DNA from: Xanthomonas rydalmerensis
Lineage (GTDB): Bacteria; Pseudomonadota; Gammaproteobacteria; Xanthomonadales; Xanthomonadaceae
DNA length: 64,000 nt
Direction: 5' to 3'
Assembly: GCF_033170385.1 (NCBI RefSeq)
Contig: NZ_CP126170.1
Location: 4,736,001-4,800,000, forward strand
Part shown: piece after piece, positions 47,535 to 61,943 of the stretch
Numbering within the stretch: the stretch's first letter is position 1
Layout of the letters: each line of letters opens with the position of its first letter
Program-made: the position numbers and the translations under genes
The notes under the pieces: generated by a model
What the model saw: the letters and a program-made list of their open reading frames with translations, nothing else
What the model was told of the DNA's origin: nothing
Databases searched by the model: none

Positions 47535-47772
47535 CAAAGGCTTTCGCCCTTTCGGGCGAGTTACTTTTCTTTGCTCGCGCAAAGAAAAGGTAACCAAAAG
47601 AAAGCGCGCCCTGCCTCGCGCCCTCCGCGCTCCGGGTCCGCGGATGCACCGGGGATTCGCGGAAGGGGCATCCTGCCCCTGCCGCGAACGGCGTACATCC
47701 ATGTACGCCGCCCTTCGGGTTTTTCCCCGGTCCATCCGCCGCTGCGGAAGGGAACCCGGTAAGTCAAAAGCC
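47535..47772 (+). repeat. ~240-bp interspersed repeat, copy A (forward)
   Basis: Starts CAAAGGCTTTCGCCC and contains a CGCCCTTTCGGGCG hairpin and GTTACTTTTCTTTGC/GCAAAGAAAAGGTAAC. GGGGCATCCTGCCCC and a TACATCCATGTA dyad follow, and it ends GGGAACCCGGTAAGTCAAAAGCC. The same unit occurs at 48079-48325, 61288-61529 and 61672-61915. Frames through it are open by composition only and are not called as genes. Confidence 0.92.
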
Positions 47773-47829
47773 AAAGCAACATCAACATCAACAGCAAAAG
47801 CAAAAGCAAAAGCAGAAGCAGAAGCTATT
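47773..47829 (+). repeat. Low-complexity AGCAAC/AGCAAA tail of repeat copy A
   Basis: Directly after AAGTCAAAAGCC come AACATCAACATCAACAGC and several AGCAAA and AGCAGA units. A similar purine-rich, CAA/AGC-rich tail follows the same end of all four copies, with different length and unit. The rest of 47830-48078 holds an inverted pair GTCATTGCA/TGCAATGAC (47851-47859, 48016-48024) and no supported gene. Confidence 0.8.
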
Positions 47830-48078
47830 GCGGATACAGCGCATGCATACGTCATTGCACTGGTGATGCGCCTGCCTAGGCGCACGCCGGCACAGCCGCC
47901 TATACGCCACGCACAACCGCGCCTGCAGCTTCTTCCGGAACCAGGGTGATTGCGTGTCCACCACGATCAACAGCCGACATGGGCCGCCACGTGCAGCGCA
48001 TTCGCTGGCGGACACTGCAATGACGCAGGTGTGCGCAGCAGTCGCAGTCGCCTCGGCCTTTGCTGTTGATGTTGCTTC

Positions 48079-48325
48079 GGCTTTTGACTCACCGGGTTCC
48101 CTTCCGCAGCGGCGGCCAGCCCGGGGGAAAACCCCGAAGGGGCGGCGCACAGGGACGTGCGCCGTTCGCGGCAGGGGCAGGATGCCCCTTCCGCGAATCC
48201 CCGGGATGGACGCGGACCCGGAGCGCGTTAGCGCGGAGGGCGCGAGGCAGGGTGTGCTTTCTTTTGGTTACTTTTCTTTGCACAAGCAAAGAAAAGTAAC
48301 TCGCCCGAAAGGGCGAAAGCCTTTG
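48079..48325 (-). repeat. ~240-bp interspersed repeat, copy B (inverted relative to A)
   Basis: Inverse orientation to copy A. Contains a perfect 15-bp stem GTTACTTTTCTTTGC with 4-base loop ACAA (48270-48303 region) and the CGCCCGAAAGGGCG hairpin. Its AGTCAAAAGCC end faces copy A, and its own tail is TTTGCTGTTGATGTTGCTTC (48059-48078). The hairpin could act as a bidirectional terminator between LysR and thioredoxin. Confidence 0.9.
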
Positions 48326-48413
48326 CCTTTGCCTTTGCTGCTTGAGATTTGCGCTTCGGACAAGCACAACCGCAAGAGTCGGCTTAGCAGCGACAGGCTC
48401 TATCGGTGAAGCC

Positions 48414-48437
48414 CGTCGCGGCTGAAGCCGGTCCTAC
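48414..48437. repeat. REP-like half element, copy 3
   Basis: A single arm, CGTCGCGGCTGAAGCCG followed by GTCCTAC, beside repeat copy B and 17 bases before the thioredoxin stop. Only one arm is present. Confidence 0.7.
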
Positions 48438-48453
48438 GAGAGCATGAGCGCGC

Positions 48454-48786
48454 TCAGCCCAAGTGCGTGCGCACCACTTCGTCGATCTTGGCCGGCGGCA
48501 CGAAGCCGGGCACGCGCGCCACTTCCTCGCCCTGGCGGAACAGCATCAGGGTCGGGGTCTGGCGCAGGCCCTGGGCGCGGAAGAAGTCCTCGCCCACGTC
48601 TTCCATCTTCACCTTGAGCAAGGTCACGCCCTGCGCACTCTCACCCTCGGCGAAGCGCTCCAGCGACTTGTCGAGCATGCGGCAGCCGGGGCAGTTGTCC
48701 TTGTTGAAATCGGCCAGCACGCGCGGGTGGGCGGCGAGCGCATCGGCGAACTGTTCGGCGCTGGAGACGGTGATGGTGGTAAGCAT
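48454..48786 (-). CDS. Thioredoxin-family protein
   Basis: 110 residues from ATG 48786. Single thioredoxin fold with active site Cys32-Pro-Gly-Cys35 in NKDNCPGCRML, rather than the canonical CGPC, and cis-Pro in RQTPTLMLF. Last gene of the nrdA-nrdB-flavodoxin-thioredoxin cluster, so a role as reductant for ribonucleotide reductase is likely. Confidence 0.88.
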   Translation of the reverse strand: MLTTITVSSAEQFADALAAHPRVLADFNKDNCPGCRMLDKSLERFAEGESAQGVTLLKVKMEDVGEDFFRAQGLRQTPTLMLFRQGEEVARVPGFVPPAKIDEVVRTHLG

Positions 48787-48874
48787 GCAACGGAACCTTG
48801 TGTGATGTCGGAGGAAGCCCGGCGTGCGATGAGGACGCCGGCGATGCCAGGAAAACGGATGGACGACGACGGCG

Positions 48875-49435
48875 TCAGCCACTGCCGCGCAGCGGCAACG
48901 CCATCGCAGCGAACCCGGCCGCGGCCGCGGAGGTGGGCTCGACAGCGGCCACCGGCACGTCGCCAGCCGACGACGCCCGCGCCGCGCGCAACGCCAGCAC
49001 CTGCGCGCACCAGGCGTCGATCGCCGTGTTGTCACGGTCGCCATGCGGCATCTGTTCGATCTCAAGCAACGGATAGGCGCTGTCGAAGAACCGCGCAATG
49101 CGCTTGACCGCACCGCAGTAATACTCCAGCCCCCACTGCGTCTCGCCAGTGCCGAACGCCGCGACCTCGATCGCCTTGCCGGTCGCCTCGACCAGCTCGG
49201 CGATGTAGCGCTTCATCTCCGCCGGCGTGCGCCCGGCGTTGTCGCTCCAGCTGCCGAGCAGGTGCAGGTCGAAGTCCGCCGCGCGCGCGGCATCGCCGAG
49301 CGCGCCCTGCAGCGTCTGCAGGTCGGTATGGATCCAGGTCACCGCGTGCCCAGCCGCCTCGCACTGCGCATGCACGCGGCGGGCGACGTCGCGGGTGTTG
49401 CCGCTGAGCGAAGCGTAGGCGAGCAGGATACGCAT
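48875..49435 (-). CDS. Flavodoxin of the ribonucleotide reductase operon
   Basis: 186 residues. FMN phosphate loop AYASLSGNTRDVA, the LLGSWSDNAGRTP loop and FGTGETQWGLEYYCGAV match flavodoxins. The C-terminal ~45 residues are an Ala-rich extension that looks non-domain. Placed between nrdB and thioredoxin; it probably supplies electrons for tyrosyl-radical cofactor assembly or upkeep (as NrdI does in class Ib), though it is not a clear NrdI. Confidence 0.82.
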   Translation of the reverse strand: MRILLAYASLSGNTRDVARRVHAQCEAAGHAVTWIHTDLQTLQGALGDAARAADFDLHLLGSWSDNAGRTPAEMKRYIAELVEATGKAIEVAAFGTGETQWGLEYYCGAVKRIARFFDSAYPLLEIEQMPHGDRDNTAIDAWCAQVLALRAARASSAGDVPVAAVEPTSAAAAGFAAMALPLRGSG

Positions 49436-49440
49436 GGAGC

Positions 49441-49470
49441 CGGGATTGGGGAGTCGGGATTGGGGATTCG
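49441..49470 (+). repeat. G-rich GGGATTG tract upstream of flavodoxin
   Basis: CGGGATTGGGGAGTCGGGAT followed by TGGGGATTCG on the plus strand. It faces the inverted copy at 49566-49600 across ~95 bases, so the space between nrdB and flavodoxin can fold into a long hairpin. Confidence 0.7.
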
Positions 49471-49565
49471 AAAGAGCGGGTCGACGTGGTTTCCACCCGT
49501 CGCGCAGAACAAATTCCTGCGCACGGGATCAGGGACTGGGAAAAGCGGGTTCCACGTTGCTGCTA

Positions 49566-49600
49566 CGAATCCCGAATGCCAAATCCCAAATCCCGGCCCC
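49566..49600 (-). repeat. G-rich GGGATTT tract immediately after the nrdB stop
   Basis: On the minus strand, right after the nrdB TGA: GGGGCCGGGATTTGGGATTT then GGCATTCGGGATTCG. Same start as the tracts after 24818 and 59329. Confidence 0.75.
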
Positions 49601-50641
49601 TCAAAGATCGTCGAAACCGTTGTCCGAGTTGGTCTTCTTGTAGCTGGCGTTGCGCATCTCGAAGAAGTCGGTCTTGGTCTCGGTGAAGTTGTCGGCGTAG
49701 GCCTTGATCCACGGCATCACGTTGTCGCTGGCGCCGCTGTACAGCTTCTCGATGCCGAGCATGCCGGACATCTTGTTGGCGCGGTACTTCACGTATTGGA
49801 TCATTTCGTCCACGTCGATACCCTCGATGCCGTCGAGCACTTCCGAGGACCACTCGGTCTCCAGGCGGATCGCGTGTTCGAAGGCCTGGTGCACGTAGTC
49901 GGTCAGCTCGTTGGTCTGCAGCTCGGCGTTCTCGCCGATGATGGCGCGGATCAGCTCGCTGATGAACTTGGTGTGGGCCAGTTCGTCGCGGTTGATGAAG
50001 CTGATGATCTTGCCGGTGCCGGTCATGCGGTTCTGCCGCACCAGGTTGTAGAAATACGCGAAGCCGGAATAGAAGTTGATGCCTTCCAGGATCGAGGACT
50101 GGATCAGCGAGCGCAGCAGGGTCTCGGCGGTCTTCTCGCGCATGAAGTCGTCGTAGGCCTGCATGATCGGCTGGTTGCGCGCGATGATGGTCGGGTGCGT
50201 CCGCGCGATCTCGAACACGCGGTTCTGGTCGGCCAGGCCGGCGATCGACGCCAGCACGTACGAGTAGCTCTCGTTGTGGATCACTTCCTGCTGGCCGATG
50301 ATCGCGGCATTGGCGTGCGCGGCCGGGTCGGTGATGTATTCGGCGACGTTGTAGATGAAGCGCGTCTGCGGCGAATCCAGCGTGGCCAGCAGGCCGATGA
50401 TCGAGTCGTAGGCGTTCTTCTCGCGCGCCGACAACTCCCCGTACTGCTTGGCATCGCCCTTCATGTCCACTTCGTCGGGGATCCAGAAGTTGGTCGACAG
50501 TTCCTTGTACGCCCGGTAGAAGGACGGGTACGGGATGTCGTTCCAGTTGAGGATGCCGCTGGTGGTGCCGTTGATGATGCCGGTGGAGCGGTTGGGGTGC
50601 AGCGGTTCGAGGATCTTGATGCGGTCGAGCGCGATGGCCAT
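49601..50641 (-). CDS. nrdB: Class I ribonucleotide reductase, beta subunit
   Basis: 346 residues. Metal ligands and radical are in place: Asp in ATLDSPQTRF, the E-x-x-H ligand pair of QQEVIHNESYSY with the candidate radical Tyr four residues after the His, then Glu in SSILEGINFY and the E-x-x-H of NRDELAHTKF. The C-terminus SDNGFDDL is the alpha-subunit docking peptide. Reduces ribonucleotides together with NrdA. The tyrosyl Tyr argues for a class Ia-type enzyme. Confidence 0.95.
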   Translation of the reverse strand: MAIALDRIKILEPLHPNRSTGIINGTTSGILNWNDIPYPSFYRAYKELSTNFWIPDEVDMKGDAKQYGELSAREKNAYDSIIGLLATLDSPQTRFIYNVAEYITDPAAHANAAIIGQQEVIHNESYSYVLASIAGLADQNRVFEIARTHPTIIARNQPIMQAYDDFMREKTAETLLRSLIQSSILEGINFYSGFAYFYNLVRQNRMTGTGKIISFINRDELAHTKFISELIRAIIGENAELQTNELTDYVHQAFEHAIRLETEWSSEVLDGIEGIDVDEMIQYVKYRANKMSGMLGIEKLYSGASDNVMPWIKAYADNFTETKTDFFEMRNASYKKTNSDNGFDDL

Positions 50642-50748
50642 GGATTTGCTTCGTCAAGTCGGGTGAACGGCGCCGGCGGGAGGCGCGGGAATGCGAAACG
50701 CACGGCGGCCATGGGCCGCCGCGCGCCGGTGGCGTCAGACGCCGGCGA

Positions 50749-53169
50749 TCAGCTCGAGCACCACTCGCACTCGCTGATGTCGATGTCGTTGGAACGCACG
50801 TAGTAGGTGGTCTTCAGGCCTTCCTTCCACGCGGTCATGTGCAGGTCCAGCAGGGTGCTGGCGCGGATGCCGCTGGGCACGTAGAAGTTGAAGCTGATCG
50901 ACTGGTCGACGTGGCGCTGGCGGCGCGCGTTTTGGCGCACGCTGGCGAACTGGTCGACCTTGTAGGCGCCCTTCTCGTAGTACGGATAGGTGTCCACGGT
51001 CAGCCCCGGCGCCACCACCGGACGGCGGAAGTCCTTCTTCTCTTCGTAGTAGAACGCGCTGTAGATCGGGTCGATCGACGCGGTGGAGCCGGCGATCTGC
51101 GCGGTGCTCATGTTCGGCGCCACCGCCACCATCCAGGCGTTGCGCACGCCATGCACGCTCACCTGCGCGGCCAGTTCCTGCCACTCGGCGCTGTCGTAGC
51201 CGCGCTTGCTGAAGTACTCGCCGTTCTGCCAGTCGCTGCCCTTGAACACCTTGTACGCGCCCTTCTCCTTGGCCAGCGCCAGGCTCGCCTGGATGGTCAG
51301 GTAGTTGATGCGCTCGTACAGCTCGTCGCTGTAGTCTTCGGCCGCACGCGAGTTCCAGTCGATGCCCTTCTGCGCCAGCAGGTGGTGCCAGCCGAAGGTG
51401 CCCAGGCCGATCGCGCGGTACTTCTGGTTGGTGATGGTGGCCTGCGGCACCGGCAGCTCGTTGAGGTCGATGACGTTGTCGAGCATGCGCACCTGCACGC
51501 GGATCAGCCGCTCCAGGATATCCGGCGACAGCAGGTCCGGCTGCGCGGTGACCGCGCGGCCCAGGTTCACCGAGGACAGGTTGCACACGACGAAGTCGCC
51601 GGCCTGCTTGGTGGTGACGATCTGGTCGCCGCTGATCATCTCCTGGATGACCCGCGTCGGGCTCATGTTCTGCAGGATCTCGGTGCACAGGTTGCTGGAA
51701 TAGACCATGCCCTGGTGCTTGTTCGGGTTCATGCGATTGACTTCGTCGCGATAGAACATGAACGGGTTGCCGGTCTCCAGCTGGCTGACCATGATCCGCT
51801 TGAACATGTCGATGGCCTTGACCACCTTGCGGCCGATGCGCTCGTCGGCCACCACTTCCTCGTAACGCGCGCGGAAGCTGCCTTCACCGCGCTTCTCGTC
51901 GAAGAAGTCCTGCAGGTACCAGCCCTTGACCTCCTTCACCTCGTGCGGGTCGAACAGGTACCACTCGCCGCGGCGCTCGACCGCTTCCATGAAGATGTCC
52001 GGCACGCACACCGCGGTGAACACGTCGTGCGCGCGCAGGCGCTGGTCGCCGTTGTTCAGGCGCAGGTCCAGGAACGCCTCGATGTCGCGGTGCCAGATGT
52101 CCAGGTACACGGCGATGGCGCCCTTGCGCTGGCCGAGCTGGTCCACCGACACGGCGGTGTTGTTGAGCTGCTTGATCCACGGCACCACGCCGCCGCTGGA
52201 GTTCTTGACCCCGCGGATCGCCGAGCCGGAGGAACGCACGTAGCCCAGGTAGGCGCCGACGCCGCCGCCGTGCTTGGACACGCGCGCCACGTCGGTGTTG
52301 GAGTCGTAGATGCCCTGCAGGCTGTCGTCGACGGTGTCGATGAAGCAGCTCGACAGCTGCCCGCCGATCTTGCCGGCGTTGGCCAGGGTCGGGGTGGCCA
52401 CGGTCATGTACAGGTTGGACAGCGCCCAGTAGGCCTCGCCGACCAGCTGCATGCGGCGCTCGCGCGGCTTCTCGTCCTGCATCAGGTACAGGGCGATGGT
52501 CAGCCAGCGCTCCTGCGGCAGTTCGTAGACCTTGCGCGAGTTGTCGGTGGCCAGGTAACGCGTGGCCAGCAGGTACAGGCCGTTGTACGCGAACAGCTTG
52601 TCGCGCTCCGGATCGATCATGCGGCCGGCTTCGGCCAGTTCGTCCTTGGAGTAGTTCTTGAGGATGTCGATGGAGTACACGCCGCGGTCGGCCAGGCTTT
52701 CCTGCAGACCGACATAGGAGCCGTACTTCTCGCCGGCATCGTAGAAACGGTTCTTGCTGGCGCGCTTGTACAGGCGGTCCAGGTACAGGCGCGCGGCGAA
52801 GTACTCCCACTCCGGCGTGGCGATGTCCACGCGCGACTCGGCCTCGCGGATCAGGTAGTCGACCATGTCGTCGGCCGACAGGCTTTCCCTCTTCTCGATG
52901 AAGGCGAAGGCCTTGCGCTCGTAGTCGCTCACGTCCAGCTGCGGGAACTCGGCGTGGATCCGGTCCAGGGTGCGCTGCAGGCGCGAGCGGTCGAAGGCCA
53001 TGCGGCGGTTGCCGCCGTCCTTGACGATCCAGGTCACGGCGCGCTGGTCGTTGCTCGGCTCGCTGCTGGCCGGCTCCGGCTGGGCGGTGGCGGCAGTGGC
53101 GGCGGCGGTCGTGGGGTCGACGGCGGCGTCGACGGACGCGGTGGCCGGCAGGCTGTGGGTCTGGCTCAT
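50749..53169 (-). CDS. nrdA: Class I ribonucleotide reductase, alpha subunit
   Basis: 806 residues from ATG 53169. N-terminal ATP-cone (IVKDGGNRRMAFDRSRLQRT, about 47-66) for allosteric control, after a disordered Ala/Pro leader. Catalytic barrel with GGQLSSCFIDTVDDSLQGI (first active Cys), NLCTEILQNMSP (Asn-x-Cys-x-Glu radical motif), and C-terminal ECEWCSS redox pair for thioredoxin. Upstream is a 200-base leader with a cobalamin riboswitch (53365-53550), so B12 sufficiency should lower its expression. Confidence 0.95.
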   Translation of the reverse strand: MSQTHSLPATASVDAAVDPTTAAATAATAQPEPASSEPSNDQRAVTWIVKDGGNRRMAFDRSRLQRTLDRIHAEFPQLDVSDYERKAFAFIEKRESLSADDMVDYLIREAESRVDIATPEWEYFAARLYLDRLYKRASKNRFYDAGEKYGSYVGLQESLADRGVYSIDILKNYSKDELAEAGRMIDPERDKLFAYNGLYLLATRYLATDNSRKVYELPQERWLTIALYLMQDEKPRERRMQLVGEAYWALSNLYMTVATPTLANAGKIGGQLSSCFIDTVDDSLQGIYDSNTDVARVSKHGGGVGAYLGYVRSSGSAIRGVKNSSGGVVPWIKQLNNTAVSVDQLGQRKGAIAVYLDIWHRDIEAFLDLRLNNGDQRLRAHDVFTAVCVPDIFMEAVERRGEWYLFDPHEVKEVKGWYLQDFFDEKRGEGSFRARYEEVVADERIGRKVVKAIDMFKRIMVSQLETGNPFMFYRDEVNRMNPNKHQGMVYSSNLCTEILQNMSPTRVIQEMISGDQIVTTKQAGDFVVCNLSSVNLGRAVTAQPDLLSPDILERLIRVQVRMLDNVIDLNELPVPQATITNQKYRAIGLGTFGWHHLLAQKGIDWNSRAAEDYSDELYERINYLTIQASLALAKEKGAYKVFKGSDWQNGEYFSKRGYDSAEWQELAAQVSVHGVRNAWMVAVAPNMSTAQIAGSTASIDPIYSAFYYEEKKDFRRPVVAPGLTVDTYPYYEKGAYKVDQFASVRQNARRQRHVDQSISFNFYVPSGIRASTLLDLHMTAWKEGLKTTYYVRSNDIDISECEWCSS

Positions 53170-53364
53170 GAAGGTCTCCAAGCGTGGTGCACGCGGCCGC
53201 CCGACCCTCGCAGGCAGCGGTCCGACCGGGTCCGAAGGGGGCAGGCGGTGTCGCGAAGACTGCAAACGGCGCAGGCACCGGGCCTGCGGGCGGTCATCGC
53301 TGCACCGACCATCTCCCCCCGGAGATCGCGCGGTCGGCGCCGCGCGGTGTGCTTCGCGCGGCTG

Positions 53365-53550
53365 TCGGCAGGTCTTCGGGCTGATGGGCAACGGCCGTGG
53401 CCGGTTCCTAGCCCGTCGCTTCCCAAGGCGGGCGCCTCAGTGCGGATGACGGGTTCGTTCCCAATTACCGCTGCGGGGCAGCGCCGGAATTGGCGTTGGC
53501 ACGCCGCACCGGCTTCCCTTTTGATCCCGCGGCTTGGGGCCGCCGGAACC
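53365..53550 (-). ncRNA. Cobalamin riboswitch in the nrdA leader
   Basis: On the minus strand, in order: AAGGGAAGCCGGTG, CCGGCGCTGCCCCGCAGCGG then TAATTGGGAACGA, CCGCACTGAGG, TTGGGAAGCGACGGGCTAGG, and a canonical B12 box CAGCCCGAAGACCTGCC (plus-strand 53367-53383). This is the same set of conserved blocks as in the metE riboswitch. About 195 bases separate it from the nrdA ATG, enough for an expression platform; several GC-rich hairpins lie there but I cannot choose one. The rest of 53170-53789 shows no gene. Confidence 0.92.
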
Positions 53551-53789
53551 GACCACCCCAAGATAGTGTGGTCGGTCGACGACGTCAACGCTAAATATGG
53601 GTCAAATTACGAAAACCTAAGCCTGGCAACGGTTTGCCGTCGGCAGCCGGTTTCGGCCCCGCCGCGGAGAACGTTCGCGACCATAACGGGGCCGTGAAGC
53701 CGGGCCCCGGAGAGGGGCAAGATGCCATCGAAACGGCCCGCCGGCCGCCCGGCGCGCGCCCTCCCCGGCCATCCGCGCCGCCGGTCGGC

Positions 53790-53924
53790 TCAGTCGCCTT
53801 TCTTGTGCTTGTGCGGCTTGAGGGATTTCGTGTTTCCCGGAATGTCCTTGTTGTCCCGCTGACGCCGATCCGGCTTGCCGGTGCTCTTTGCGATGCGCTT
53901 GGGGCCAGGTTTGATGCCCATCAT
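53790..53924 (-). CDS. Small basic conserved-type protein (44 residues)
   Basis: 44 residues from ATG 53924 with GGAGTG just upstream. It is very basic and low in hydrophobics: MMGIKPGPKRIAKSTGKPDR then RQRDNKDIPGNTKSLKPHKHKKGD. No hydrophobic segment; a nucleic-acid-binding or ribosome-associated peptide is plausible from composition only. It stands between cobB and the nrd leader on the same strand. Confidence 0.55.
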   Translation of the reverse strand: MMGIKPGPKRIAKSTGKPDRRQRDNKDIPGNTKSLKPHKHKKGD

Positions 53925-53983
53925 CACACTCCACGGGTGGTCGACCGAAGCAATCGAAGCCACATCTTCAACGTGCAGCGGCC

Positions 53984-54754
53984 TCAGGCCACCATGCACT
54001 GCTGCAACAGCAACGGCAGCGCCACCGCCGCGCTGTCGCGCCAGTGCAGATCGGCGCGCGCCGACAGCGCGCTGGGTTCGGGGTTGATCTCGACCACGCA
54101 GGCGCCGCGCTCCTTGGCCTGCAGCGGCAGGCTGGCGGCCGGATAGACCAGGCCGGAACTGCCGATCACCAGCACCAGGTCGGCGGCGTCCGCCGCGGTC
54201 TGCGCGCGCGTCCACTCCGCCGCCGGCAGCGCTTCGCCGAACCACACCACGCCCGGGCGCACCGTGCCGCCGCAGGCCGCGCACACCGGCGGCGCCAGGC
54301 GCTGGCTCGGCGTGTGCACGTCCACCGGCGGCAGCAGCCCACGCCAGGGCTGGCCGCAGTCGCTGCAGCGCAGCGCCGACAGGCGGCCGTGCACGTGCGC
54401 GGCGACCTCGCTACCGGCGCGCTGGTGCAGGTCGTCCACATTCTGGGTCACCAGCGTGGTGTGGCGGACCTCGGCCAGGCGCGCCAGCGCAAGATGCCCG
54501 GCATGCGGCTGCGCCAGCGCCACGATCGCCATGCGCCAGCGGTACCAGCCCCAGACCAGGGCCGGGTCCGCGCGCCAGGCGTCCTCGGTGGCCAGTTGCT
54601 CGGGATCGAAGCGCGACCACAGGCTGTCGTCCTGGCCGCGAAAGGTCGGCACCCCGCTCTCGGCGGACATGCCGGCACCGGTCAGCACCAGCACACGACG
54701 CGCGCCCTGCAGGAAGGCGGCGACGGTCTCGGCGTTGTAGGCGGAACTGAGCAT
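53984..54754 (-). CDS. cobB: NAD-dependent protein deacylase, CobB/SIRT5-like (class III) sirtuin
   Basis: 256 residues. VLTGAGMSAESGVPTFRG, TQNVDDLHQRAGS, catalytic His in HVHGRLSAL, zinc ligands CSDC and CAAC, VVWFGEALP and IGSSGLVYPAASL. The segment WYRWRM has a Tyr and an Arg three residues apart, the pair that binds succinyl/malonyl lysine in SIRT5 and CobB, so desuccinylase activity is likely. It is the second sirtuin in the window. Confidence 0.92.
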   Translation of the reverse strand: MLSSAYNAETVAAFLQGARRVLVLTGAGMSAESGVPTFRGQDDSLWSRFDPEQLATEDAWRADPALVWGWYRWRMAIVALAQPHAGHLALARLAEVRHTTLVTQNVDDLHQRAGSEVAAHVHGRLSALRCSDCGQPWRGLLPPVDVHTPSQRLAPPVCAACGGTVRPGVVWFGEALPAAEWTRAQTAADAADLVLVIGSSGLVYPAASLPLQAKERGACVVEINPEPSALSARADLHWRDSAAVALPLLLQQCMVA

Positions 54755-54917
54755 GGCGCGCCCGATTTGATGAAGCTCACACTATTGCATCGCCGCGGGA
54801 CGGCCTCAATGTGCGCGGCAACACGCGCGGCACCCGCAACGCGAACGGGCGGCCACTGGCCGCCCGTCGCTTACCGCCATGGACCGGCGCACGCGCCGGC
54901 CAAGACATCCCGCTGGC

Positions 54918-55349
54918 TCAGCCGAGCACAACCAGCTTGACGTCGATGTTGCCGCGGGTGGCGTTGGAGTACGGGCACACCTGGTGCGCCTTCTCCACCA
55001 GCGATTCCAGCGTCGCACGCTCCACGCCCGGCGCCGCGATGCGCAGTTCCACCGCGATACCGAAGCCGCCCGGGATCTGGCCGATGCCGACATGGCCCTC
55101 GATGTTCGTCTCGGCCGGCAGCGTCACCTTCTCCTGCCCGGCGACGAACTTCAGCGCGCCGATGAAGCAGGCCGAGTAGCCGGCCGCGAACAGCTGCTCC
55201 GGGTTGGTGCCGTCGCCGCCGGCGCCGCCCAGCTCGCGCGGGGTCGACAGCTTGACGTCCAACGCCTTGTCGGGGGTGGCGGCGCGGCCGTCGCGGCCCC
55301 CGGTGGCGGTGGCAGTGGCGGTGTAGACGATGGTGGTCGGTGAAGCCAT
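54918..55349 (-). CDS. ohr: Organic hydroperoxide reductase (OsmC/Ohr family)
   Basis: 143 residues from ATG 55349. The two catalytic cysteines are present: Cys61 in [10 protein letters not shown] and Cys125 in [13 protein letters not shown], with Arg in STPRELGG. Reduces organic hydroperoxides, with lipoyl proteins as electron donors in known members. 74 bases downstream of ohrR, in the ohrR-ohr order known in Xanthomonas. Confidence 0.96.
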
Positions 55350-55423
55350 GGTGGTTCTCCTTGGAGGGTGGCGCCGCGGCGCCATGGGTGTAGAGGGGAT
55401 GGGGTGATCGGAGCCGGAATCGC

Positions 55424-55882
55424 TCAGGGCGCGGCCAGCAACTTGCCGCGGACCTCTTCCAGGTCGTGCTTGAGCCGGGTCAGTTGCTGCAGGTCGCAGG
55501 CGACCGCGCACAGCACGCCTTCCGGCACTGCCTGCGCACGCGCACGCAGGGCCTGGCCCTCGGCGGTCAGCGCGATCAGCACGCGGCGCTCGTCCTCGGC
55601 GGCGCGGCGGCGGGTCAGCAGGCCGACCGCCTCCAGGCGCTTGAGCAGCGGGGTCAGCGTGGCCGAATCCAGGAACAGCTTCTCGCCGATGTCCGAGACA
55701 CTGCAGCCGTCCTGTTCCCACAGCACCAGCATCACCAGGTACTGCGGATAGGTCAGGCCGAGCTCGCCCAGCGGCCCGCGGTAGAGCTTGTGCATCGCCA
55801 GGTTGGCCGAATACAGCGCGAAGCACAGCTGGGTGTCCAGCTTCAGCAGCGCGGTGGCGTCGGGGGGAGAGGTACGGTCCAC
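55424..55882 (-). CDS. ohrR: Organic-hydroperoxide-sensing repressor (MarR family)
   Basis: 152 residues. Sensor Cys20 in [11 protein letters not shown], and a C-terminal pair Cys125/Cys129 in [10 protein letters not shown], one of which should be the resolving Cys of two-cysteine Xanthomonas OhrR proteins. Winged helix with [26 protein letters not shown] and basic wing [17 protein letters not shown]. Represses its own operon until oxidised. A 15-bp palindrome lies 22 bases upstream of its start. Confidence 0.93.
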
Positions 55883-55903
55883 GGGAGGAGATATTACATA
55901 GTG

Positions 55904-55918
55904 TGCGATTCAATCGCA
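55904..55918. promoter_or_regulatory. Candidate OhrR operator palindrome
   Basis: TGCGATTCAATCGCA is a perfect 7+1+7 dyad just upstream of the ohrR start. No equivalent lies in the ohrR-ohr gap, consistent with one autoregulated operon promoter. Confidence 0.55.
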
Positions 55919-56025
55919 AGCGATATTTTTGCCGGTGCTAACTTCCGGCTGAAGCGCTCGGCGTCCTGCCCCTGTGCCGCCGCTGGCGCAGGATTACGCT
56001 GCCGCGCAGCCCGAGGAGTCTCCGC

Positions 56026-56418
56026 ATGCGCGCATCGTTCCTGCTGCTGGCCGCGCTTGGCGGTGCGCCCGCCGCCGTCGTGCCGAACACCCTGCCCGCC
56101 GGCCCGGTGCTGGTCGGCGCCGGCGCCGACGCGCTGGCGCGTGAAACCCATCGCCAATGCCCAACGGTGCCGACCGACCGGCTCACCCCGGCCGACCTTC
56201 TCGATGCCGAGGACACGTTTCGCGACGGGCTGTCGGTGGCGCAGCGCCAGGCCATGGACCGGCAGTTGCCGCAGGACGGCGCGTTCGGCCCGGCCCGCTG
56301 CGCACGCAGCGAAGGCGGCGCCAGTTGCCCGGCGGCCGCCTATCTGCAAGAGATTGCGGGCGCGGGCCTGATGCCGCGCTTCGTCGCCGGGCTGTGCGCG
56401 CCCGGCGCAGTGCGCTGA
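56026..56418 (+). CDS. Secreted hypothetical protein
   Basis: 130 residues with a short signal peptide (MRASFLLLAALGGAPAA). The mature part has four Cys, which could make disulfides, and a helical segment TPADLLDAEDTFRDGLSVAQ. No domain is recognised. It converges with zapE. Confidence 0.65.
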   Translation: MRASFLLLAALGGAPAAVVPNTLPAGPVLVGAGADALARETHRQCPTVPTDRLTPADLLDAEDTFRDGLSVAQRQAMDRQLPQDGAFGPARCARSEGGASCPAAAYLQEIAGAGLMPRFVAGLCAPGAVR

Positions 56419-56440
56419 GCGCGCGCCGGCGCTCCTGCGT

Positions 56441-57538
56441 TCAGACCCGGTGCGCGGCCGACAGGTACTCGGCGCTCTGCATCTCGATCAGCCGCGAGGC
56501 GGTGCGCTCGAAGGCGCCGGCCAGGCGCTCGCCGGTGTACAGCAGCGGCGGCGGATCCTGCGCGGTGCAGACCAGGTTGACGTGGCGGTCGTACAGCTCG
56601 TCGATCAGGTTGACGAAGCGCCGCGCCGCATCCTCGTTCATGCGGTCGAAGTGCGGGATGCCGCCGAGCAGCACGGTGGTGAACTCGTGCGCGATCTCGA
56701 TGTAGTCGCTGGGACCGCGCGGGCCTTCGCACAAGGCGACGAAATCGAACCAGACGATGCTCTTGCCGCGCGCGCGCACCGGGATCTTGCGCCCTTCGAT
56801 CTCGATGTTGCCGCGGCGCGCCTCGGCCTTGCCGGTCAGCGCGCTCCAGCGTTGCTCCAGCCAGGCGTCGCTGTCCTCGACCAGCGGCGCGCGGTACACC
56901 GGCGAGCGGGTCAGCGCGCGCATGCGGTAGTCCTCGGCGCCCTCGGCGTACAGCTCCACGCAGTAGGTCTGCAGCAGCGCGATCGCCGGCAGGAAGCTGT
57001 CGCGCTGCAGGCCGTTGAGGTACAGGTTCTGCGGCGCGGTATTGGAGGTGGTGACCAGGGTCACACCCTCGGCGAACAGGCGCTCGAGCAGGCGCGACAG
57101 CAGCATCGCATCGCCGATGTCGGTGACGAAGAACTCGTCCAGCACCAGCACGCGCAGCCGGCTGCGCCACTCCTGTGCGATCTTGGCCAGCGGATCGCTC
57201 TGCCCGGCATGCGCGCGCAGGCGCTCGTGCACGCCGCGCATGAAGCGGTGGAAATGGGTGCGGTACTTCCGCGTGATCGGCAGGCCGTCGTAGAACAGAT
57301 CGACCAGGAAGGTCTTGCCGCGGCCGACCCCGCCCCAGAAGTACAGGCCGCGCACCGGCTCGGGCTTCTTCCAGAACGCCGACAGGCGGTCCAGCCAGCC
57401 GTCCTGGTCGCCATCCACGATCGCGACGTGGATGCGGTCCAGTTCGGCCAGCGCCGCATGCTGGGCCGGATCGTCGCGCCAGTCGCCGCGCGCCACGCCC
57501 TCGGCGTAGCGCTGCGACGGCAATGCCGCCGCGCTCAC
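56441..57538 (-). CDS. zapE: Cell division ATPase ZapE (AFG1-like)
   Basis: 365 residues from GTG 57538, which overlaps the hydrolase stop (GTGA). Walker A GGVGRGKTFLVDLFYD, Walker B VLVLDEFFVTDIGDAM, sensor TSNTAPQNLYLNGLQRDSF and FDFVALCEGPRGPSDYIEI are typical of ZapE/AFG1. E. coli ZapE acts at the Z ring under low oxygen or stress. Confidence 0.93.
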   Translation of the reverse strand: MSAAALPSQRYAEGVARGDWRDDPAQHAALAELDRIHVAIVDGDQDGWLDRLSAFWKKPEPVRGLYFWGGVGRGKTFLVDLFYDGLPITRKYRTHFHRFMRGVHERLRAHAGQSDPLAKIAQEWRSRLRVLVLDEFFVTDIGDAMLLSRLLERLFAEGVTLVTTSNTAPQNLYLNGLQRDSFLPAIALLQTYCVELYAEGAEDYRMRALTRSPVYRAPLVEDSDAWLEQRWSALTGKAEARRGNIEIEGRKIPVRARGKSIVWFDFVALCEGPRGPSDYIEIAHEFTTVLLGGIPHFDRMNEDAARRFVNLIDELYDRHVNLVCTAQDPPPLLYTGERLAGAFERTASRLIEMQSAEYLSAAHRV

Positions 57539-58200
57539 GCCTGTGCCGCCGGCAGCCAGCCCTTGACCGCGTGCTGCAGCGCGCCGCGCAGGTCGATCAG
57601 CTTGCGATGGAAGAAGTGGCTGGTGTCGGGCATGCGCACCAGCTCCGGCTGCGCTTCCAGGGTCTCCAGCCAGTCGTACACGGCCTGCGGATCGACGATC
57701 TCGTCGGCCTCGCCCTGGATCACCAGCCACTGCGGCGGCGGCACCATCTCGGAAAAATCCCAGCGCCCGGCCGGCGGCGCGATCGAGATCAGCACCTGCG
57801 GCTGCAGCGCGGCGCTGGCGCGCAGCGAGACATAGGCGCCGAAGCTGAAACCGGCCAGCCACAGCGCGTCGTGCGGGCGCTGCGCGCGCACCCAGGCGGC
57901 CACCGCGGCCAGGTCCTGCTGCTCGCCCTCGCCGTGGTCGAAGCTGCCGGCGGAAGCGCCGACGCTGCGGAAGTTGAAGCGCACCACGTGCACGCCCAGT
58001 TCGCGCAGCGCGCGCGCGACCATCGTCACCACCTTGTTGTGCATGCTGCCGCCCTCGGTGGACAGCGGATGGCAGACGATGGCGGTGACCGGCAGCGCGG
58101 CGACGTCGGTGTCGGGCAGATCGACCGCGGCCTCGATCGGGCCGGCGGGGCCTTGCAGCGTCACTGGGCCGGAGGCGGTGGGGAAAGCGGGAGAGGTCAT
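57535..58200 (-). CDS. Alpha/beta hydrolase, YfhR/dienelactone-hydrolase-like
   Basis: 221 residues. CHPLSTEGGSMHNKVV near the start, nucleophile elbow LAGFSFGAYV (Ser), Asp in QGEADEIVDPQAV and His in PDTSHFFHRKLIDL. This is the short cytosolic hydrolase family often paired with zapE; the substrate is unknown. Confidence 0.88.
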   Translation of the reverse strand: MTSPAFPTASGPVTLQGPAGPIEAAVDLPDTDVAALPVTAIVCHPLSTEGGSMHNKVVTMVARALRELGVHVVRFNFRSVGASAGSFDHGEGEQQDLAAVAAWVRAQRPHDALWLAGFSFGAYVSLRASAALQPQVLISIAPPAGRWDFSEMVPPPQWLVIQGEADEIVDPQAVYDWLETLEAQPELVRMPDTSHFFHRKLIDLRGALQHAVKGWLPAAQA

Positions 58201-58286
58201 GCGGTCATAATACCGGGGCTGGGTCGTGGCCACATGCGGATGCGGTGCACGCAGCGTTCTTTTTCCCTTCCCGATCCGGATCCCGC

Positions 58287-59150
58287 GTGGCGTTCGTCCT
58301 GTTGAGTGTTGTGTGCAGCGTGCTGGTCTCGGCACTGCTGAAGCTGGCGTCGCAACGGCGCATCGACCTGGCCCAGGCGGTGACCTGGAACTACCTGGCG
58401 GCGCTGCTGCTGTGCGCGGCCCTGCTGCAGCCGCCGCTGGCCGCGCTGGACGGCGCGCATACGCCGTGGGCGTCGCTGCTGGCCCTGGGCGTGCTGCTGC
58501 CGGGCATCTTCCTGGTGCTGGGCCGCGCGGTGGCCAGCGCCGGCATCGTGCGCACCGACGCGGCGCAGCGGCTGTCGCTGCTGCTGTCGCTGGCCGCGGC
58601 CTTCCTTTGGTTCGGCGAACACGCCAACGGCGCCAAGCTGGCCGGCCTGGCGCTGGGCCTGCTGGCCATCGCCGGCATCGTGCAGCGGCCGGATACGACG
58701 CCGCGCAGCGCCGCAGGCACCGCGCCGTGGCTGCTGCTGGTATGGGTCGGCTTCGCCGCGATCGACGTGCTGCTCAAGCGCATCGCCCAGGCCGGCACGC
58801 CGTTCGCCGCCTCGCTGCTGGTCGCCTTCGCGCTGGCCTTCGTGCTGCTGCTGGGCGTGCAGCTGTGGCGCCACCTGCGCGGCACCGCCCCGCTGGCCTG
58901 GCGCAACCTCGGCGCCGGCCTGCTGCTGGGCGCGCTCAACTTCGGCAACATCCTGTTCTACGTGCGCGCGCACCAGGCCCTGCCGGACAGCCCCGCCAGC
59001 GTGTTCGCGGCGATGAACCTGGGCGTGATCGGCCTGGGCACCCTGCTCGGCGTCGCCGTGTTCGGCGAGCGCACCAATCGCTGGAACCGCCTCGGCCTGC
59101 TGCTGGCGGTGCCGGCGATCGTGCTGATCGCGGTGGGTGCGGGTAGCTAG
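58287..59150 (+). CDS. DMT-superfamily (EamA-like) transporter
   Basis: 287 residues from GTG 58287; an upstream GTG at 58245 adds 14 non-hydrophobic residues. Ten hydrophobic helices in two five-helix halves, the first FVLLSVVCSVLVSALLKLAS and the last VAVFGERTNRWNRLGLLLAV. Metabolite exporter by family. Divergent from the hydrolase-zapE unit. Confidence 0.85.
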   Translation: MAFVLLSVVCSVLVSALLKLASQRRIDLAQAVTWNYLAALLLCAALLQPPLAALDGAHTPWASLLALGVLLPGIFLVLGRAVASAGIVRTDAAQRLSLLLSLAAAFLWFGEHANGAKLAGLALGLLAIAGIVQRPDTTPRSAAGTAPWLLLVWVGFAAIDVLLKRIAQAGTPFAASLLVAFALAFVLLLGVQLWRHLRGTAPLAWRNLGAGLLLGALNFGNILFYVRAHQALPDSPASVFAAMNLGVIGLGTLLGVAVFGERTNRWNRLGLLLAVPAIVLIAVGAGS

Positions 59151-59293
59151 TTCTCAGCGCGCGCCTGCAACTCCCGCTGCCGATTCTCGAATCGCAAGCG
59201 CATCAGTGTCATCACGCTGGAAATGGATCGCCACGAATCTGGCCTGATCGTGCCGGCAGGCAATCAACCCTCAGCACCCGCACCCCGCTCTTA

Positions 59294-59328
59294 CGATTCC
59301 CCAATCCCGATTCCCGATTCCCGGCCCC
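59294..59328 (-). repeat. G-rich GGGAATC tract immediately after the COG0523 gene stop
   Basis: On the minus strand, directly after TGA: GGGGCCGGGAATCGGGAATC then GGGATTGGGGAATCG. It is four heptad-like G-runs, a possible G-quadruplex on the RNA strand. The gene-free stretch 59151-59293 holds no other feature. Confidence 0.78.
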
Positions 59329-60663
59329 TCAACGCCTCCACGCCGGAAACGGATCCTCCAACCCCTGCCACGCCACCGGCCCCTGCCGCAGTTCGGCGTC
59401 GTCGAGCAGGCAGGCATCGAGTTCGGCGCGCACCCGCGCCTCGTCCAGGCCGACGCCGATCACTGCCAGTTCCTGGCGGCGGTCGCCCCATAGCGGATGC
59501 CACATCGCCCGCAGCGCCGCGTACTCGCGCGCATCGCCGACCTCCTCGGCCTGCGGCGGCGGCGCGTTCCAGCACGCGGTCTGCTGGCGCTGCCAGCCCA
59601 GCTCGGTATACGGCAGCGGCGACGGCGGCAGCACCAGCGGCGTCTCCAGCAGGCCGCGGTCCACGCGCTCGCGCGCCGCGTACCAGAACCCGGCGGCCTG
59701 GGTCTGGGTGGCGGCGCCGACGATGGACAGTTCGCCGACCCAGTCCATGCGGCTGGCCAGCCAGAAGAAGCCCTTGCTGCGGATCACGTCGCGCAGGCCG
59801 CGCTGCGCCAGCCGTGCGAAGCGCAGCGGATGGAACGGCCGGCGCGCGCGATAGACGAAGCTTTCGATGCCGAACTGCTCGGTCTCCGGTGCGTGCTCGC
59901 CGCGCAGCGCCTGCATCCAGCCCGGCGCCAGCTGCGCGCGCACGAAGTCGAAGCTGCCGGTGTCCAACACCAGCTCCAGCGGTACGTCCCCGCGGCTGGC
60001 CTCGACGATGCGCGCATCGCGGTTGAGCGCACGCAGCACCGCGCGGGTGCGGTCGAGGGTGGCCGCATCGGCCAGGTCGGCCTTGCTGATCACGACCACG
60101 TCGGCGAACTCGATCTGTTCCACCAGCAGGTTGACCAGCCCGCGGTCGTCGTCGGCCCCGGCCTGCAGCCCGCGGTCGGCCAGCCGCTCTGCCGAACCGA
60201 AGTCGCGCAGGAAGCTGACCCCGTCGACCACGGTGAGCATGGTGTCCAGGCGCGCGACATCGGCCAGACCGCGGCCGTCGGCATCGCGCACGGCGAAGGT
60301 GGCCGCCACCGGCATCGGCTCGGAGATGCCGGTGGATTCGATCAACAGGTAGTCGTAGCGCCCGCTCTCGGCCAGGCGCTGCACCTCCTGGCGCAGGTCG
60401 TCGCGCAACGTACAGCAGATGCAGCCGTTGCTGAACTCGACCAGGGTTTCCTCGGTGCGGCTGAGCGCGGCGCCGCCGTCGCGGATCAGCGCCGCGTCGA
60501 TGTTGACCTCGCTCATGTCGTTGACGATCACCGCCACGCGGCGGCCGTCGCGGTTGTGCAGCACGCGGTTGAGCAGGGTGGTCTTGCCGGCGCCCAGGAA
60601 GCCGGACAGCACGGTGACGGGAAGGCGGCGATCGGAAACGGTGGAGATGGACATGGCGGGCAT
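59329..60663 (-). CDS. zigA: COG0523 G3E GTPase, ZigA-type zinc chaperone
   Basis: 444 residues from ATG 60663 (or 441 from 60654). Walker [13 protein letters not shown], the metal-binding CxCC in [24 protein letters not shown], and the GTPase NKxD-like SKADLAD. The long C-terminal CobW_C domain has the [15 protein letters not shown] segment and [17 protein letters not shown] Zur-like box lies in its promoter, so it likely supplies zinc to key enzymes during zinc starvation. Confidence 0.9.
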
Positions 60664-60686
60664 CGGCGCGAAGGCGTGGCGGGCTG

Positions 60687-60708
60687 GAAATGTTACTATA
60701 TAACACTT
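60687..60708. promoter_or_regulatory. Zur-like box between zigA and the MerC-type gene
   Basis: GAAATGTTACTATATAACACTT is a near-perfect inverted repeat that matches the gammaproteobacterial Zur box (GAAATGTTATA-TATAACATTTC type). It lies in the only 66 bases between two divergent genes and could repress both when zinc is plentiful. Confidence 0.8.
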
Positions 60709-60729
60709 AATGCACTGGAGTGGACGTCG

Positions 60730-61113
60730 ATGAAATCCCTGCCGCAATCCTTCTTCGATGCCTCGGCGATGGTGTTGTCCGGGCTGTGCTTGCTGCACTG
60801 CCTGGCGTTGCCGTTGCTGGCCGCGGCGCTGCCGCTGTTCGGGGTCTGGGCCGAGGCCGAATGGGTGCACGTGCTGTTCGTGGCGATCGCCGCGCCGTTG
60901 GCGGGGCTGGCGCTGTGGCGCGGGCATCGGCGCGACGCGCTGCCCTGGCCGCTGTGGACGCTGGCGGCGCTGGGGCTGCTCGGTCTGCTGGCCGGCGCCT
61001 TCGGCATTCCCGACGAGGCCAGCGAGACCGCGATGACGGTGAGCGGCAGCCTGGCGCTAGCCAGTGCGCACCTTTGGAATTGGCGCCGACACCTGCGGCG
61101 TTGCCGGCATTGA
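60730..61113 (+). CDS. MerC-domain membrane protein
   Basis: 127 residues. Four hydrophobic helices; the first includes [18 protein letters not shown] with the Cys-x4-Cys pair of MerC family metal transporters. Further TM are [15 protein letters not shown] and [15 protein letters not shown], and the C-terminus is basic. As it shares a Zur-like box with zigA, zinc handling is more likely than mercury uptake; no mer genes are nearby. Confidence 0.82.
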
Positions 61114-61186
61114 GCGCAGACGCGAGCGCGGGACATGCGGCATAGCGTGCGGCCGCCGAGCGGCAATCAGGGCCGAGGCGCAGTTT

Positions 61187-61287
61187 GCTGTCGCTGTCGC
61201 CTTGGCAGTTGCCGTCGCCTCTGCTGTTGCTGACGCTTTGGCAGTTGCCGCTGTTTCTGCCGTTGCTGTTGCCGTTGCCGTTGCTCT
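61187..61287 (-). repeat. Low-complexity GTTGCC/GCAACG-type tail of repeat copy C
   Basis: A run of TTGCCG, TTGCTG and CTTTGGCAGTTGCCG units leading into copy C. Read on the minus strand it follows the AAGTCAAAAGCC end as AGAGCAACGGCAACGGCAAC. The stretch 61114-61287 has no supported gene. Confidence 0.8.
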
Positions 61288-61529
61288 GGCTTTTGACTTA
61301 CCGGGTTCCCTTCCGCAGCGGCGGATGGACCGGGGAAAAACCCGAAGGGCGGCGTACATGGATGTACGCCGTTCGCGGCAGGGGCAGGATGCCCCTTCCG
61401 CGAATCCCCGGTGCATCCGCGGACCCGGAGCGCGTAGCGCGGAGGGCGCGAGGCAGGGCGCGCTTTCTTTTGGTTACCTTTTCTTTGCGCGAGCAAAGAA
61501 AAGTAACTCGCCCGCAAGGGCGAAAGCCG
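61288..61529 (-). repeat. ~240-bp interspersed repeat, copy C
   Basis: Same orientation as copy B: GGCTTTTGACTTACCGGGTTC at the left; GGGGCAGGATGCCCC in the middle; and GTTACCTTTTCTTTGC/GCAAAGAAAAGTAAC then CGCCCGCAAGGGCG at the right. With copy D it forms an inverted pair, here joined by the opposite ends from the A/B pair. Confidence 0.92.
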
Positions 61530-61569
61530 TTGCTGTTGCTCGAAGTTTGTGTGTCAGGCGAGAAGGTCT

Positions 61570-61635
61570 GTAGGAGCGGCTTTAGCCGCGACAGGCAGAA
61601 TGGACTCGCGCTGTCGCGGCTAAAGCCGCTCCTAC
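61570..61635. repeat. REP-like palindrome, copy 4
   Basis: GTAGGAGCGGCTTTAGCCGC and its exact inverted arm GCGGCTAAAGCCGCTCCTAC with a ~24-base centre, lying between copies C and D. The T/A change in the loop region is compensated on both arms. Confidence 0.9.
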
Positions 61636-61671
61636 AATTCAGCGGCCGCCGCCGTAGCAGCAAGTGCAAGA

Positions 61672-61915
61672 GCAAAGCTTTCGCCTTGCGGCGAGTTACT
61701 TTTCTTTGCTTGTGCAAAGAAAAGTAACCAAAAGAAAACACACCCTGCCTCGCGCCCTCCGCGCTGGCGCGCTCCGGGTCCGCGTCCAGCACGGGGATCC
61801 GCGGAAGGGGCATCCTGCCCCTGCCGCGGACGGCGCACGTCCATGTGCGCCGCCCCTTCGGGGTTTTTCCCCGCGTTGGCCGCCGCTTCGGAAGGGAACC
61901 CGGTAAGTCAAAAAC
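61672..61915 (+). repeat. ~240-bp interspersed repeat, copy D
   Basis: Forward orientation like copy A: GCAAAGCTTTCGCC at the left, GTTACTTTTCTTTGC/GCAAAGAAAAGTAAC with a 4-base loop, GGGGCATCCTGCCCC, and GGGAACCCGGTAAGTCAAAA at the right. It is followed by a CAAC/AGC-rich tail and an 18-bp tandem array. Confidence 0.92.
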
Positions 61916-61943
61916 AAGAGCCAAAGCTAAGCAACAACAACAG

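Follow-up and report, generated by a model that had tools for sequence, protein, structure and literature searches.

What are the four closely similar, strongly folded sequences of about 240 nucleotides (nt) that lie as two inverted pairs in a 64,000-nt stretch of Xanthomonas rydalmerensis (contig NZ_CP126170.1, positions 4,736,001 to 4,800,000; this whole stretch is the window, and positions below are counted from its first letter)? An earlier note, made from the letters alone, had placed four copies here, and we recovered them where it put them, matching each other in inverted orientation over 224, 207 and 102 nt (91-97% identity). The sense strand, a pseudoknot with a triple helix, hairpin loops carrying GGA, a link to the RNA family TwoAYGGAY and a reach beyond Xanthomonas were overlooked there. 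Based on these features, we lean towards reading the copies as arms of a dispersed, probably mobile, paired RNA element whose GGA loops would bind the protein CsrA where it is present and whose triplex knot would cap the RNA. Searching with copy 1 (BLAST) returned the four at 100, 96, 88 and 84%, and they are 84-97% alike among themselves, with one pair head-to-head and the other tail-to-tail, just as had been described. Their parts are as follows, S1 being the first helix of the pseudoknot.

47535-47772, sense strand minus: arm A1 (type A, S1 loop GCGCG)
47560-47608, minus: A1 putative triple-helix pseudoknot, CGCGC-TTTCTTTT-GGTTACCTTTTCTTT-GCGCGAGC-AAAGAAAAGTAAC, on a basis that includes covariation
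47695-47704, minus: A1 CsrA-type hairpin loop ACATGGATGT; GGA in this first loop is kept in 41/41 aligned Xanthomonas arms
47668-47676, minus: A1 second GGA hairpin loop GCAGGATGC; GGA kept in 40/41 aligned Xanthomonas arms
48079-48325, sense strand plus: arm B1 (type B, S1 loop GCACA); it diverges from A1, and both pseudoknots point outward
48253-48300, plus: B1 putative triple-helix pseudoknot
48149-48158, plus: B1 GGA hairpin loop ACAGGGACGT
48177-48185, plus: B1 GGA hairpin loop GCAGGATGC
61288-61532, sense strand plus: arm A2 (type A)
61459-61507, plus: A2 putative triple-helix pseudoknot
61356-61365, plus: A2 GGA hairpin loop ACATGGATGT
61384-61392, plus: A2 GGA hairpin loop GCAGGATGC
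61672-61915, sense strand minus: arm B2 (type B)
61695-61742, minus: B2 putative triple-helix pseudoknot
61837-61846, minus: B2 GGA hairpin loop ACATGGACGT
61810-61818, minus: B2 GGA hairpin loop GCAGGATGC

Two details needed adjustment. The third copy (A2) lies where it had been placed and ends at ~61532 rather than 61529, and the 15-bp GTTACTTTTCTTTGC stem said to be perfect is so in the two type-B copies and carries one bulged base in the two type-A copies.

Set against dinucleotide shuffles, copy 1 gave z -7.5 for RNA folding and z -8.4 for DNA folding, none of 200 shuffles being as stable. The folding strand is the reverse complement of the copies that had been called plus, such that those are antisense. 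Base pairs of the knot on this sense strand include 80 G·U against 10 A·C (121 distinct knots, under scoring indifferent between the two), one-sided changes that keep a pair in the whole-arm alignment are largely G·U as well (largest groups 15, 12 and 8 cells), and the terminal hairpin has a GNNA loop in most own-genome copies (GAAA, GCAA, GUCA, GCCA, GUAA) that is absent from some copies of congeners. Because of this asymmetry in G·U excess and GNNA loop, selection seems to act on the sense strand as a single strand, be it RNA or single-stranded DNA (ssDNA).

Across 41 aligned Xanthomonas arms (own copies with nested inserts or truncations being left out), the arm opens at its 5' end with an outer helix (CGGGUUC/GGACCCG) and continues through a long helix that is variable and rich in double changes, a small hairpin, the hairpins P4 (loop AUGGAU, AUGGAC or AGGGAC) and P5 (loop AGGAU), a GCGC hairpin, the pseudoknot and a short hairpin, with 20 of the 79 predicted pairs showing kept double changes. 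A want of structural covariation had been named as what would count against the repeat; the compensatory changes found are strong, and that objection falls. The same holds for a match to an rRNA or tRNA family, as Rfam at gathering scores matched no family over the copies. Nor did an insertion-sequence fragment turn up, in searches that covered Rfam and phage sequences and no insertion-sequence database. We further agree that the element is structured, non-coding in appearance and dispersed, and that no transposase lies within the copies. Long open reading frames (ORFs) do cross them in several frames, and base-pairing covariation and strand asymmetry favour structure over a protein-coding reading.

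Evaluating the 3' part of the arm further, we found the order to be helix S1 (5 nt), loop L1 (UUUCUUUU(G)), the 5' strand of helix S2 (GUUACUUUUCUUU), the 3' strand of S1, 2-3 nt, and the 3' strand of S2 (AAAGAAAAGUAAC). S1 pairs vary as UGUGC/GCACA, CGCGC/GCGCG, GGUGC/GCACC, UCGCC/GGCGA, GUGCCC/GGGCAC and others, and are wholly Watson-Crick in 83 of 123 model-found knots. Among 39 aligned sequences, picked for diversity from 70 distinct ones, both-sided changes occur in 4 of 5 S1 pairs and 4 of 13 S2 pairs, with the invariance of the core in this set being partly by choice because the exact search pattern fixed L1 and most of S2. Double-change cells number 34 versus 5.4 in shuffles, none of 500 shuffles reaching as high, a result that supersedes an earlier permutation test on few types (6/19 versus 1.2). 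By these comparisons the arm's predicted 3' structure is an H-type pseudoknot, both of whose interleaved helices are backed by compensatory changes.

L1 runs parallel to the purine strand of S2, with U·A and C·G matches in the same register as a major-groove triplex would have them. In distant copies found by the covariance model, L1 varies along with the core, 7-mer with 7-mer (UUUCUCUU/AAAGAGAA, UUUUGUUU/AAAAUAAA, UUGUCUUU/AAUAGAAA; further examples are UUCUCUUU/AAGAGAAA and UCUUCUUU/AGAAGAAA). When base pairing alone determined the anatomy, and shuffles were likewise allowed any register, 44 variant rows held 218 matches between L1 and the purine strand against 188.0 +/- 4.6 (maximum 202 in 2000 shuffles), and 112 distinct rows held 680 against 621.7 +/- 5.9 (shuffle maximum 641). 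These replace earlier tests whose anatomy had partly been chosen for triplex matches (237 against 196 +/- 4.8), with an effect that is lower but above all shuffles. At positions with U in the purine strand, counted over distinct cores, 4 of 6 cells of L1 are G, the remaining two being one U and one C; in parallel triplexes, G is known as the best third base over a T-A pair. Several weaker model hits have mismatches or no visible triplex. Taken over the covarying copies, L1 seems to form a U·A-U/C·G-C major-groove triple helix with S2.

We next turn to the domain 5' of the knot, which resembles, and in some genomes is, TwoAYGGAY (RF01731). That family was listed in a table of Weinberg 2010 (PMC2864571) and predicted from its loops to bind CsrA (PMC4333381); papers on it treat, besides this prediction, an extension of the helix and the addition of two pairs (PMC4333381, PMC7657543, PMC11701678), and the consulted parts of these papers and of PMC2864571 do not mention a knot, a triplex, pairing or copy number. 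The RF01731 model has no match in the window, in locus L001 (up to E 1) or in the own genome, and passes threshold in copies of some relatives from other families (60.6 bits in L177, 43.6 bits in L187), with a Solimonas copy at 42 bits. Of the 370 class genomes 23 have it, the knot being present as well in 14 of these, and in the 7 genomes with places listed for both, the knot lies directly 3' on the same strand at no fewer than 15 of 29 hits (counted by eye); this arrangement recurs in L177 and L187. Measured against AYGGAY, the first loop reads AUGGAU, AUGGAC or AGGGAC and the second AGGAU, of which the second loop and the AGGGAC form do not fit.

Each window arm has two GGA hairpin loops, and ACAUGGAUGU and ACAGGGACGU among them resemble the CsrA consensus. 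Two or more GGA loops occur in 47/116 arms versus 38/348 shuffles and 1/116 antisense arms, after 8 of 124 knots were dropped for having no usable 5' domain. Comparing genomes by their CsrA content revealed that 42 of 71 CsrA-bearing and 0 of 15 CsrA-less genomes have one or more sampled arms with GGA wholly within a hairpin loop (p 1.5e-5), where CsrA absence was read from match lists and some CsrA-less genomes are drafts. Counting by family, which handles kinship roughly, gave 33/52 versus 0/7 (p 0.002), and a looser count that allows closing bases gave 43/71 versus 1/15 (p 1.2e-4). These figures omit five genomes with no usable arm (G063, which is CsrA-less, G216, G282, G312 and G362) and two CsrA-less, knot-bearing genomes with no locus (G349, G385). 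As judged from these sequences, the association with CsrA concerns the GGA loops and not the knot. The triplex knot is the common core of the element, since the GGA part is optional: sampled CsrA-less genomes, and some with CsrA, keep the knot and not the GGA loops.

How far does this core extend? In an even sample of 370 genomes of the class, a knot covariance model of 57 positions had matches in 90, belonging to 75 of the 273 genera; in a sample of 299 genomes of the phylum it had matches in 50, of which 18 lie outside the class and score lower. The highest load was 63 matches in one genome. Carriers of the exact pattern are Xanthomonas, Stenotrophomonas, Lysobacter, Pseudoxanthomonas, [Pseudomonas] boreopolis, Solimonas, Stenotrophobium, metagenome-assembled genomes of Stagnimonas, Sulfuricaulis and others, and Pasteurellaceae. 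Two Mannheimia copies share the knot and the adjoining CAAAAGAAAGCACACCC with Xanthomonas, and five Pasteurellaceae copies have in common with it a GAAGGGA motif near the other end and differ in the middle. Burkholderia replicons hold a 58-nt match (6 Burkholderia records in the plasmid search). The window copies had no match in the phage search; one IMG/VR contig carries the exact knot pattern (L292, 9508-9548).

Within the genus, all 20 genomes searched, own included, have matches, from 3 to 61 each. The own genome, a single 5.04-Mb contig, has 61 BLAST places that we grouped into 27 copies, of which 16 form 8 clear inverted pairs; a ninth, degenerate partner precedes the copy at 4929283. 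In all 8 pairs a type A arm (loop CGCG) is partnered with a type B arm (loop UUGU). Knots point inward in 7 of the 8, the window's pair A being the one outward pair, and 6 of the 7 inward pairs have a REP pair between their arms. Two kinds of smaller module sit inside arms. One, a hairpin module of ~28 nt (GCGCTTTACCACAGCCGAAGGCTGGTCA and variants), is found inserted in A-rich sites of the form GAA/AAG, where it often splits L1 or S2; it occurs in five own-genome loci (L031, L032, L035, L039, L041) and several congener copies, and looks like a separate miniature insertion. The other, a multi-hairpin module of ~91 nt, stands in place of the apical loop of one GGA hairpin at positions 1759674, 2592037, 3746006, 3913362, 4805167 and 4929283 of the own-genome contig C1. 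Around the window arms lie the following features.

47771-47825: hexamer-like tract (AAAAGC/CAACAG) adjoining the 5' end of A1
47826-48059: spacer of pair A, with a remnant of a glyoxalase/VOC-type gene
61569-61636: GTAG-type REP pair (REPIN-like) between A2 and B2, whose pseudoknots point inward
61918-62046: hexamer/18-mer tract (CAACTGCCAAGGCGAAAG) adjoining the 5' end of B2
19826-20079, plus, and 53350-53568, minus: two cobalamin riboswitches elsewhere in the window
8375-8447, minus: a tRNA, likewise elsewhere in the window

Is the pair, then, the unit? Over 91 loci of up to ~3 kb we counted 43 neighbouring knot pairs (with antisense self-matches of the palindromic stem excluded by hand), 38 of them outward, 3 inward and 2 in the same direction; 51 loci have one knot only. 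Xanthomonas pairs, with knots mostly inward, are unlike the outward pairs elsewhere, 26 of which span 398-596 nt. In genome G537, the one with 63 matches, 14 copies could be aligned with one further copy over 700-880 nt, and in our own scan 10 of 20 inspected copies were bounded on either side by an outer inverted repeat resembling TTGATACCGGACTGGCAAG. Accessory genes (PAAR with Tae4, SduA_C with GIY-YIG, DUF2059, lipoprotein-like ORFs) lie within some outward pairs spaced 1-3 kb, and other pairs hold no ORF of 80 residues (L306) or none that could be named (L303, L304, L311). Accessory sets such as PAAR + Tae4 and Shedu SduA + GIY-YIG stand between outward arms in loci L293, L294, L295, L187 and L188. 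No shared enzyme was seen between arms, the ORFs differing from locus to locus by eye, with ten of them compared with Pfam.

At pair A itself, the arms seem to have arrived on either side of a gene that was already there, and not to have brought it with them. Four congeners have a glyoxalase/VOC-like gene at this locus with no arms (Pfam E 0.002 to 6.5e-5, two of the four being over the cut-off), and the spacer (47826-48059) matches that of G010 over 101 nt at 72% (E 1e-10) and those of the other three weakly. The G010 match runs both ways (query 49-147 plus, 177-227 minus), forming a small fold-back. Looking for empty sites and target duplications in congeners at the lysR-trx locus and a second locus revealed no clean insertion site or duplication. 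At the lysR-trx locus of G006 (L149, 3353-3564) both arms are missing and ~15 nt of one arm end remain, which suggests a deletion rather than an untouched site. In two Pasteurellaceae species, the same-looking gene start stands, by eye, beside opposite arms (L137 4130-4700 versus L142 7330-7880), as though the element had undergone inversion at its site.

Comparing sequences tells us which strand folds, what fold and pseudoknot it takes, that the third strand covaries, that the arms lie in inverted pairs, how widely the element occurs and that GGA loops go with CsrA, and on this we would build a mechanism whose transcription, CsrA binding, protection and mobility are more conjectural. Each arm would be read in one direction, yielding an RNA with a closed multi-hairpin domain that presents the GGA loops, then an H-type pseudoknot whose U/C-rich L1 would sit in the S2 major groove as a triple helix, and in Xanthomonas and relatives a short hairpin after it. 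Once the arm is transcribed, the GGA hairpins may bind CsrA/RsmA where present, sequestering CsrA or tying the flanking transcript to it, and the triplex knot may block 3'-5' decay or otherwise cap the RNA. Inverted pairing would give either direction of transcription one sense arm, and the element might spread as a unit through an enzyme supplied in trans. The simplest joint view would be a stable RNA, or a stable 3' part of one, that holds CsrA where CsrA exists. A bolder version, to which we give tentative credence at most, is an unrecognised class of mobile element whose two ends are outward structured RNAs with triplex knots, which would travel alone (~430-800 nt) or with accessory genes between the arms and would connect with its host by way of CsrA-binding loops, these having been lost where CsrA was lost.

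Several observations weigh against the capped, CsrA-binding RNA proposed here. On the side of expression, a scan covering sigma-70-like promoters only found 0 near the window copies, and 7 of 9 single own copies between tandem genes have a sense strand opposing those genes, such that simple read-through would mostly make antisense. On the side of CsrA, 29 of 71 CsrA-bearing genomes have no GGA loops in sampled arms, five Pasteurellaceae loci show none by eye, one or more GGA loops arise in 154/348 shuffled arms versus 72/116 real ones, and CsrA does not predict the knot, being present in 83 of 90 knot-bearing and 241 of 280 other genomes. Some RF01731 loci have no visible knot (L287, L290, L291, in genomes with no knot matches), so the TwoAYGGAY part and the knot can occur apart. 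On the side of structure, the 39 pseudoknot sequences come largely from the exact pattern, in which S1 was left free, and pseudoknot-free folding programs pair the Xanthomonas S1-L1 stretch with the upstream GGAGGGCGC, an alternative helix with double changes in 0 of 9 pairs.

Among competing explanations the one that survives best, though we consider it unlikely, is that the fold acts as ssDNA. The arms would then mark the ends of a mobile DNA element or serve as its recognition sites, and a transposase, recombinase or replication enzyme would recognise the knot, or else H-DNA, given the mirror repeat that L1 makes with the S2 strand. DNA folding is as extreme as that of RNA; DNA too tolerates G·T better than A·C, and neither the folding statistics nor this tolerance separates RNA from ssDNA. 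It would also suit the many similar copies per genome, the outer inverted repeats at both ends of half the inspected G537 copies and the predominance of inverted, outward neighbours (38/43). Set against it, the arms of one element differ in S1 and lower S2 (GUUAC versus CCUAC in L142), unlike ends served by one enzyme; retention of GGA loops tracks CsrA, an RNA-binding protein; and no recurring protein was seen by eye among the ORFs listed between arms. A reading as integron attC sites was dropped because the element ends seem not to fit.

Could the arms instead be a terminator or mRNA-end module, inverted so as to end or protect transcripts from either side? The hairpins had been proposed as bidirectional terminators, and that proposal keeps some weak backing: shuffles would lead one to expect 1.4 and 1.9 terminator-like sites, and 4 and 5 are present, with one per arm, at the terminal hairpin, facing transcripts that reach the knot end. 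Of the nine, four (one per arm) lie within the folded strand, before the knot's stem; four are antisense to it, at the terminal hairpin; and one is in a tract. By our own gene caller, 19/19 own-genome loci are intergenic and only 1/19 divergent, and a tail-repeat-tail bias has been published for other repeats (PMC2718517). Against the proposal, all nine sites have imperfect T runs and the context is mostly tandem (14 loci, with 4/19 convergent); tandem contexts and antisense single copies weaken a bidirectional 3'-end module in particular. With triplex covariation and the GGA-CsrA link also left unexplained, we regard the terminator module as improbable.

Somewhat less credible still is a functionless selfish repeat, mobilised with REPINs by a REP transposase, whose compensatory changes would come from template switching at palindromes. 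Template switching can homogenise palindromes, REP pairs lie inside 6/8 own pairs, and the own genome has one Y1-type transposase gene (G000:C1:4890569-4890889, in a 231-aa open frame), possibly REP-associated. Such switching cannot co-vary a parallel third strand with a stem, nor keep GGA loops while stems change, and REPs between arms were seen in Xanthomonas only, no search having been made elsewhere. Least plausible of all is a new riboswitch-like or cis-regulatory leader, which would fit a knot followed directly by AGAGGA and ATG in A. minor (L142) and Glaesserella (L112), or by a start codon ~30 nt on that reads, by eye, like sucC in M. haemolytica (L085), and which is at odds with dozens of copies at many places per genome.

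If the capped, CsrA-binding RNA is right, about a quarter of sampled genomes of the class (90/370) carry an RNA triple helix inside an interspersed repeat, which would offer many natural variants for testing the rules of RNA triple helices, including G·U-A triples. The decade-old prediction linking TwoAYGGAY to CsrA would likewise become a testable link between a repeat and a global regulator, backed by the absence of GGA loops from sampled CsrA-less genomes. In listings returned by searches of the open-licence literature (by sequence, Lysobacter repeats, triplex, CsrA with repeats, and transposable elements), we recognised no description of the element.

Placed beside known systems, the arm resembles TwoAYGGAY in its two adjacent GGA-loop hairpins inside a closing stem, a unit that in related copies is followed immediately by the knot on that strand, and differs in that the window copies fall short of the RF01731 model. 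With the CsrA-binding small RNAs CsrB, RsmX, RsmY, RsmZ and RsmU, the last of which derives from the 3' untranslated region of comEA (PMC7694677), it shares GGA in hairpin loops; unlike them, the window arm has two GGA hairpin loops only, dispersed copies, a triplex knot end and no promoter found. The triplexes of ENE, telomerase and the SAM-II/preQ1 RNAs similarly place a U-rich loop in the major groove of an A-U-rich stem beside a short coaxial stem, whereas this element is bacterial, a dispersed repeat, and has 6-8 consecutive triples with covarying C·G-C and G·U-A triples. As short, intergenic, structured, gene-free repeats, the copies recall REP/REPIN, ERIC and NEMIS and the R-families of P. 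fluorescens (PMC2718517), from which they differ in arms of ~240 nt, a conserved complex fold and no GTAG REP consensus; by eye, no 20-25 nt GTAG units of the REP/REPIN kind lie in the arms, and REPs lie beside them. One of these families, R200 (320 bp, 47 copies in SBW25; PMC2718517), may or may not be a relative, judging from its description only. Compared with miniature inverted-repeat transposable elements, terminal inverted repeats stand at both ends in 10 of 20 G537 copies and are not defined in Xanthomonas. The element would act in part as a CsrA-binding RNA and in part as an interspersed repeat, its structural core matching neither kind.

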